Below are positions 49,846 to 51,723 of a stretch of DNA of 64,000 bases, piece by piece. The position numbers and the translations under genes are program-made. Every line of letters begins with the position of its first letter. Position 1 is the stretch's first letter. Source of the DNA: Cystobasidiopsis lactophilus (Eukaryota > Basidiomycota > Agaricostilbomycetes > Agaricostilbales > Chionosphaeraceae); contig BCIO01000003.1 of assembly GCA_001599975.1 (NCBI GenBank), forward strand, positions 1,544,677 through 1,608,676, given 5' to 3'. Under the pieces are notes generated by a model. That model saw only the letters and a program-made list of their open reading frames with translations, was not told where the DNA came from and did no database searches.

Positions 49846-51571
49846 CTATTCTTCGTCGTCGCTTTCATCGTCCTCCTGCTCCTCCAACCACTTGATGAAG
49901 GGCTTGGCGGCGAGGCGAACCTGCTTCGAGACCTGCGCAGAGCGAGTTGAAAAGACCGCAAGCATGACGAGAAGCAGAAAAGAGAGACTCACTTCTTTGG
50001 GCACGTACTTCTTGCTGACGTGCTTGCCCCATTTCAAGGCGGGCTCCTCCTCGAGAACTTCGGCTTGGTAGACTACACCGAGCAATGAGCGGAAGTAGCG
50101 GATAGAACGCGGAAGAGACGCACAGGCCATGAGGATCTTGGGCGTCTGGGGCACCAGGTCGGGGTAATTGACGCCAATGTGGCGCTCAAGGCCACCCAAC
50201 AAGCTCTTCTGAAACTTTTCGCCCTTGTCCTCCGAAGACAGTAACTGGGACAGCGTTTTGAGCACTGCGATCAGGGAACGCAGGAATGAAGACGGCCTCA
50301 CTTTCAGCAAAAGCGGAGCGTGATCCTCCACCTCTTCGGCGATCTTGTCGGTGAACAGACCTTCGACAAGAGCTTGGACGGTGCGGTGCTTCTTGTCGAT
50401 GCCCATCTCGACAGCCTTCTTGTAGATCTCGGCATCGGTCGCCGTGCGGTTGTCCGCGACCCACTGCTTGTACACACCGTAGGGTCCACCTTCCTCGTCG
50501 TCGTCGTCGGCAAGGATGGCGGCAGTGATGCCCGAGTTGAGAGCTTCCATGCGAGCGGCCATGGCCTCTTTGGACGTGTCGGCCGCCCAGTCGACCTGGT
50601 CTGCGTCCACGACTTCGACCTTGGACATATCTTTGGCGCCGGCCGCGATCTTGCGGGACATTTCGTCGTCGCCCGAGCCCTCGTCGCCGTCTTCGCCGGC
50701 CGCATCCGGGGAAGCGCCCCCATTCTCGGTCGCCTTCTTGCCCTTCTTGGACGGCTTCTTGGGCGGGTTCTTCAAGATGAAGGTGACCAGCTTGTGGCGC
50801 ATGTCGACCGCCTTGCGCTCACCGCAGGCCTTGCAGTCACGCAAGATGTTGTCGTCTCGAGTGATGATGAGGTCGGTCTCTGAGAAAATCCGGCCCGTTG
50901 AGCTCAGGAAAATGACGAGACAAGAGCTCAGAGCGCACCTGGGTTTTTGCACGAGCCGCAGAGCACAAACTTGTCGATGAAGACGTCGAGGAGCTCGCGA
51001 AGCCTCTCTTGCGTGTGGATGCCGTTGACAATGAAGCGTTCGGCTTTGTCGTCCAAAATGGCTATATAGAGTACATCAGCTCTGTGGTATGAGAAGTGCG
51101 GCAGGAGAGATTCACTTTGGGCCCCAAGTCTGCAAGCGGGACCGACCTCAGCTGGAAGATCAGGCGGATCAGAAAGGGAGCAACCCACTCGCAGCCAAAG
51201 AATTTAGTCGCGTAGCCGGGAGGGCGGCTGAGGGAGCGCGACACGTCCACAATGTTGGGGAGCACTGGACATGCACCTGCATGTCAGCATCCCTTCTCTA
51301 CGGTCATGAGGTGACGGGCAGCAAACGCACCAGTCTTGACTCCGTTGCCTTTGCCTTCCACTTTGGTCAGCAAGACTGGCATCCTGGCAAACGCTTCTTG
51401 GTTAGAACCTGCTCCCTGTCCGCAAACATCCAGGGGACTTGCTTGTATCGGTAATGGGCATCGCCAGCATTTTGGCGCCCAATATTGACTACTCCGGCCC
51501 TAAAAGGAGAGGGAAGGAAACGTCAGCAGGGCCAGCAAGGCCAGCAACTCAATGGGGGCCGCCACCTACAT
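49846..51571 (-). CDS. translation initiation factor eIF5 (GTPase-activating protein for eIF2)
   Basis: Stimulates GTP hydrolysis by eIF2 and sets start-codon stringency. The spliced N-terminus is MAGVVNIGRQNAGDAHYRYK then MPVLLTKVEGKGNGVKT, matching the family. The zinc ribbon is CGSCKNP...RDCKACG, followed by a Lys-rich and acidic linker, a W2 domain (YPDLVPQTPKILMAF, then KWGKHVSKKYVPKEV) and an acidic aromatic end AKPFIKWLEEQEDDESDDEE. The start codon is split: A and T at 51571-51570, G at 51499, with a 70-nt intron (51500-51569, GTAGGT to TTTTAG) between. Intron 2 (51384-51442) has a GC donor (GCAAGT). The GAP arginine region near the N-terminus is within the conserved block. No alternative ATG in frame upstream fits. 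Confidence 0.92.
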
Positions 51572-51723
51572 GATGAGAATAGATTTTTCAGGTTCTGCAG
51601 AGGCTCAAGCGTGAGCTCCAGCTCGCTGATGAGATCAATAGAGTCTTCGTACAGGTCAGAAAGCGGCGAATGGTCGATGAATGAAGTCTTGCAGCAAGCT
51701 GTTTGCGTGAGGCGCATGCGCAT
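51489..51723 (-). promoter_or_regulatory. overlapping upstream ORF before the eIF5 start codon
   Basis: If the mRNA begins upstream of 51723, the first intron's 5' exon contains an ORF from ATG 51723-51721 (a second ATG follows at 51717-51715). In the spliced mRNA it has 54 codons, passes over the eIF5 start in the -1 frame and stops at TAG 51491-51489, ten bases into the eIF5 frame. Both ATGs have a pyrimidine at -3 (TTCATG, CGCATG), a poor context, while the spliced eIF5 ATG reads ATCATGG, a good one. Transcript start was not established. Confidence 0.5.

Follow-up and report, generated by a model that had tools for sequence, protein, structure and literature searches.

A start codon split by an intron, and an upstream reading frame that overlaps it, in the eIF5 gene of Cystobasidiopsis lactophilus

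Our analysis concerns the eIF5 gene of Cystobasidiopsis lactophilus, which lies within a stretch of 64,000 nucleotides (contig BCIO01000003.1, positions 1,544,677 to 1,608,676; the whole stretch is referred to below as the window) and runs on the minus strand of the window from 51571 to 49846 (Table 1). The gene model, which was set by homology, has nine exons and eight introns (70, 59, 66, 59, 54, 59, 51 and 60 nt for introns 1 to 8) and encodes a product of 415 residues. Both domains that define the eIF5 protein family are found in this product by Pfam search, each above cut-off (PF01873, N-terminal eIF5/eIF2beta, 6.9e-34; PF02020, C-terminal W2, 5.7e-19), and the predicted protein thus belongs to that family. 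The best 13 of the 27 sequences of solved structures that match the product carry the name eIF5. The best eIF5 chains, 6zu9 (9e-90) and 9h6y (3.1e-78), which we take to be the yeast and human proteins, align from their own residue 3, and the N-terminus of the model should therefore be correct to within two or three residues. Searched against the whole genome, the PF01873 profile matched three stretches. One belongs to this gene, and the others are neighbours on contig C5 that are putatively eIF2-beta.

The start codon of the gene is split by its first intron. The A of the codon lies at 51571, exon 1 ends in AT at 51570 and exon 2 begins at 51499 with GGCCGGAGTAGTC, while the intron between them reads GTAGGT...CTCCTTTTAG and has a CTGAC branch-like site and a pyrimidine run before its TTTTAG acceptor. 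The donor is thus inside the ATG and the acceptor restores a start codon in the reading frame of the conserved protein, the predicted spliced start being ATG GCC GGA GTA GTC AAT ATT GGG CGC, or M A G V V N I G R. The conserved VNIxR...YRYK segment would be lost if exon 2 were left out; homology therefore supports exon 2 and hence the split start. If intron 1 is retained, the ATG is followed directly by TAG and the product is a single residue. A preliminary description of this DNA had already reported the AT/G split by an intron at 51569-51500, the unspliced ATG-TAG, the agreement of the spliced N-terminus with eIF5 (VNIGR), the change of the +4 base from T to G upon splicing, and the impossibility of starting eIF5 at this ATG unless the intron is removed. 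Our reading bears out each of these points, the coordinates and letters exactly, and we conclude from the splice sites and the homology taken together that intron 1 and the eIF5 gene are real. Among the papers listed for split or interrupted start codons, start-stop forms and eIF5 upstream open reading frames (ORFs), we found none on an eIF5 start codon split by an intron.

Table 1. Features at the 5' end and in the remainder of the eIF5 gene (window coordinates)
Feature	Position	Strand	Basis or remark
Upstream ORF, exon 1 part, ATGs at 51723 and 51717	51570..51723	minus	sequence; place in transcript putative
Exon 1, coding part (AT of the eIF5 start codon)	51570..51571	minus	sequence
Intron 1, 70 nt, GTAGGT...CTGAC...CTTTTAG, interrupting the start codon after AT	51500..51569	minus	sequence
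Upstream ORF, last part after splicing	51489..51499	minus	sequence; TAG ends at 13th base of eIF5 frame
Alternative acceptors GGAG (last base 51492) and GTAG (last base 51489)	51489..51492	minus	splice-site scores (see text)
Exon 2, start-codon G to ...HYRYK	51443..51499	minus	sequence and homology
Intron 2, GC-AG (GCAAGT...GCCAG), CTAAC branch-like site	51384..51442	minus	sequence and homology
Exons 3-9 and introns 3-8, ending in TAG	49846..51383	minus	homology, domains, alignment

To gauge how unusual the split is, we applied a self-trained ab initio gene finder to the window and a further 200 kb of its contig; the models are unverified, and the last round gave 98 genes with 514 introns. The statistics that follow come from its genes scoring at least 15 (n = 85) and its introns of at most 100 nt (n = 447), longer introns having been dropped. 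The density of introns in the predicted genes, 0.00342 per coding base, leads by simple arithmetic to a chance expectation of an AT/G split in about 0.34% of genes, or about 24 in the roughly 7,100 genes obtained by scaling 85 genes in 264 kb to 22.1 Mb. A donor starting with GTAA, GTGA or GTAG, as in 158 of the 447 predicted introns, automatically gives an ATG-stop when it follows AT, and about nine split starts of this kind are therefore expected without selection. The ATG-stop stems from the splice donor rather than from eIF5 and is not remarkable; we thus rejected the idea that the ATG-TAG is a specially evolved start-stop. The gene finder permitted split starts and chose none in its 98 predicted genes, but it also missed that of eIF5, so this count is no measure of rarity. 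Its eIF5 model, confined to 51383-49846, started at an internal methionine of exon 3 and dropped exons 1 and 2, a warning that automatic annotations may drop the same two exons. The commonest donor in its models was GTGCGT (84/514 introns). Among the predicted acceptors, a C preceded the AG in 426 of 478 introns and an A stood in front of that C in 243 of the 478, with little pyrimidine preference further upstream.

The preliminary description went on to suggest that retention of intron 1 might serve as an on/off switch. Under this explanation, retention would be regulated such that, in some condition, ribosomes would encounter AUG-UAG and produce no eIF5, the one-residue product of the retained form being just what is called for. 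The acceptor of intron 1 is weak by the position matrix (10th percentile of the 447 predicted introns), which leaves room for inefficient splicing. The donor is ordinary (38th percentile), however, and the branch-like site and pyrimidine run are in place. The acceptor matrix rewards a C before the AG and credits a pyrimidine run little, since pyrimidine preference is weak in the columns built from the predicted introns; the acceptors of eIF5 introns 2, 3, 5 and 7 score likewise low (12th, 14th, 15th and 8th percentiles). In addition, retention of intron 1, 2, 3, 4 or 6 would truncate the protein, whereas the frame stays open if intron 5, 7 or 8 is retained. Since five of the eight introns truncate when retained, intron 1 is one of several with the same effect and no unique switch. 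We therefore find the proposed switch unsupported and consider regulated retention improbable. Across the 447 predicted introns, retention would bring in an in-frame stop in 249, a frameshift only in 152 and neither in 46. Introns 5, 7 and 8 of eIF5 (51115-51062, 50123-50073 and 49992-49933) are each a multiple of three nucleotides long and contain no in-frame stop, and so are of the kind represented by those 46.

Absent from the preliminary description is an upstream ORF that overlaps the eIF5 start. In the spliced form it comprises 54 codons and terminates 13 bases into the eIF5 frame; without splicing it extends to 66 codons, terminating 49 bases beyond the main A, inside intron 1. The contexts of its two ATGs are poor, TCGTTC/ATG/C at 51723 and ATGCGC/ATG/C at 51717: by a matrix made from the 85 predicted starts, none of these 85 scores below either of them. 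The main ATG, once spliced, has a context above that of 56 of the 85 predicted starts and above that of 131 of the 139 ATGs that lie within 160 bases upstream of predicted starts; in unspliced form its context lies at the 44th percentile. Poor-context upstream AUGs ahead of a good-context main AUG make up the layout of eIF5 upstream-ORF autoregulation, and the predicted mRNA would have this layout. Of 1020 control windows, 254 were open, and 9 of these reached the codon score of the upstream frame. A Pfam search with the upstream ORF peptide gave no match. A separate search for relatives, in viral contigs and prokaryote genomes, sets from which near records may be left out, gave 5 and 28 pattern matches, respectively, none of which was confirmed, and a 5.8S rRNA search meant to place the organism had no match.

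Several observations weigh against a regulatory role for this ORF. It may fall outside the eIF5 mRNA, whose start upstream of the two ATGs we infer. Of the 7361 ATGs in the sequence examined, 1616 and 1410 score below the two upstream ATGs, as do 29 and 25 of the 139 ATGs upstream of predicted starts, and the comparison in which 0/85 predicted starts scored lower is biased, the predicted starts having been picked by a finder that rewards good context. When the upstream stretch was shuffled, it stayed open in 222 of 2000 cases. Some ATG occurs within 160 genomic bases upstream in 70 of 84 predicted genes, and 28 of the 84 have, within that distance, an out-of-frame upstream frame that overlaps the start. 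With such frames and poor contexts common at large, position and context alone prove nothing. The poor context being extreme relative to predicted starts, but not to ATGs at large, our preferred explanation (see below) is weakened and another is raised, namely that intron 1 only boosts expression, as an enhancing start-proximal intron, and that the ATG-stop and the upstream ORF are irrelevant. The lack of statistical distinction of the upstream ORF speaks for this alternative, which nevertheless leaves unexplained the presence of a poor-context upstream ORF of the sort reported in the eIF5 mRNAs of many eukaryotes (PMC3426882, PMC5823381). We hold it to be unlikely, though deserving of some weight.

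A further alternative turns on two 3' splice sites lying 8 or 11 bases downstream of the expected one. With either in use, the ATG would be lost and the upstream ORF would run in frame into eIF5, yielding an N-terminally extended protein of 462-463 residues that starts at a poor-context ATG. With either site the reading frame stays open through the whole of eIF5, and the GTAG acceptor scores 1.40 compared to 2.37 at the expected site. The GGAG acceptor, on the other hand, scores only -2.62, TTTTAG is the first AG past the branch-like site, and in the fusion the MA start would be gone, with about 50 residues added ahead of the point where the best eIF5 chains begin. We find this explanation scarcely credible.

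On balance, we think it probable, though by no means assured, that this is an ordinary eIF5 gene from which intron 1 is constitutively removed and in which the regulated step is more likely to be translation, by way of the overlapping upstream ORF. The ATG-TAG would be a by-product of the donor and would at most render the rare unspliced RNA non-productive; carrying a start-stop, with its stop far upstream, such RNA would be a likely substrate for nonsense-mediated decay. To reach the overlapped eIF5 start on the spliced mRNA, ribosomes would have to leak past the poor-context 54-codon upstream ORF. High levels of eIF5 are expected to relax start selection and increase upstream initiation, leading in turn to less eIF5. 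The overlapping upstream ORF, a known kind of regulator, thus appears a likelier means of eIF5 control than intron 1. The preliminary description had also raised the possibility of eIF5 autoregulation; the idea itself fits the overlapping upstream ORF better. The two could in principle be joined, with splicing in the start codon and start-codon stringency forming one circuit and the eIF5 feedback gaining a splicing arm. Intron 1 would then determine the end of the upstream ORF, which lies 13 bases into eIF5 after splicing and within the intron without it, as well as whether the main AUG precedes a G or is a start-stop, while minor use of the alternative acceptors would even yield the fusion of the upstream ORF to eIF5. 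We consider this very improbable.

Two further features of the gene model deserve mention. Intron 2 has a GC donor, as do 11 of the 447 predicted introns. An alternative acceptor at 51416 within this intron was rejected, as the exons so joined give a product of 16 residues. On the minus strand at 50301-50265, inside eIF5, there is a 37-nt intron-like stretch (GTGAGG...CTGATCGCAG) whose removal breaks the frame and which, when read through, adjoins residues missing from the best-matching eIF5 chain. Either this stretch is coding or there is a one-base sequence error close by.

The facts at the locus alone provide a clean case: the gene governs start-codon choice, and its own start codon is split. 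Should the upstream ORF be transcribed and act as it does in other eukaryotes, eIF5 feedback would also be extended to this genome. Autoregulation of eIF5 by poor-context upstream ORFs was reportedly described by Loughran and colleagues in 2012. The genome also has, on contig C6, a gene that we take from its sequence, HIRIQQRNGRKTLTTVQG, to be eIF1. A search limited to introns of at most 220 nt and to minimum site scores found only one start for it, MSNPFAVDSLEEEDVAQ, with a 163-nt intron between this start and the conserved exon (candidate start MSNPFAVDSLEEED, minus strand). The context of this candidate is poor, below that of 85/85 predicted starts, with 1074 of the 7361 ATGs at large scoring lower. 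Poor context at the eIF1 start is what the published eIF1/eIF5 scheme expects (PMC5823381), and the present start would agree with it, the eIF1 model being tentative.

Introns at start codons have been described in Yarrowia lipolytica, where in 42 of 2421 introns the donor comes straight after a start-codon nucleotide (A, T or G) and a figure legend notes the TRR (mostly stop) that comes next (PMC13309789). The present intron resembles these in the placing of its donor within or immediately behind the start codon, and differs in the organism, in the gene, which here is eIF5, and in that its splicing is predicted. The unspliced form also resembles minimal start-stop upstream ORFs, in which an AUG is followed at once by a stop, but the eIF5 ATG-stop exists only in unspliced RNA and is built on the main ATG itself. 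As for the upstream ORF, poor-context upstream ORFs are reported to feed back on eIF5 in many eukaryotic eIF5 mRNAs (PMC5823381, PMC3426882) and have been called a near universal feature (PMC3426882). In Cryptococcus, eIF5 has a poor-context upstream AUG (aaagaguucAUG) with ribosome density, and its transcript is up 2.6-fold in a C. deneoformans upf1 mutant (PMC7049704). Compared to these published systems, the regulation of the present gene is a prediction from sequence. Its upstream ORF reaches past the main start, an overlap that splicing inside the start codon brings about. The likeness lies in the gene itself, in the poor-context upstream ATGs and in the good-context main ATG, and extends to the guucAUG that the Cryptococcus upstream AUG shares with TCGTTC/ATG here (PMC7049704).
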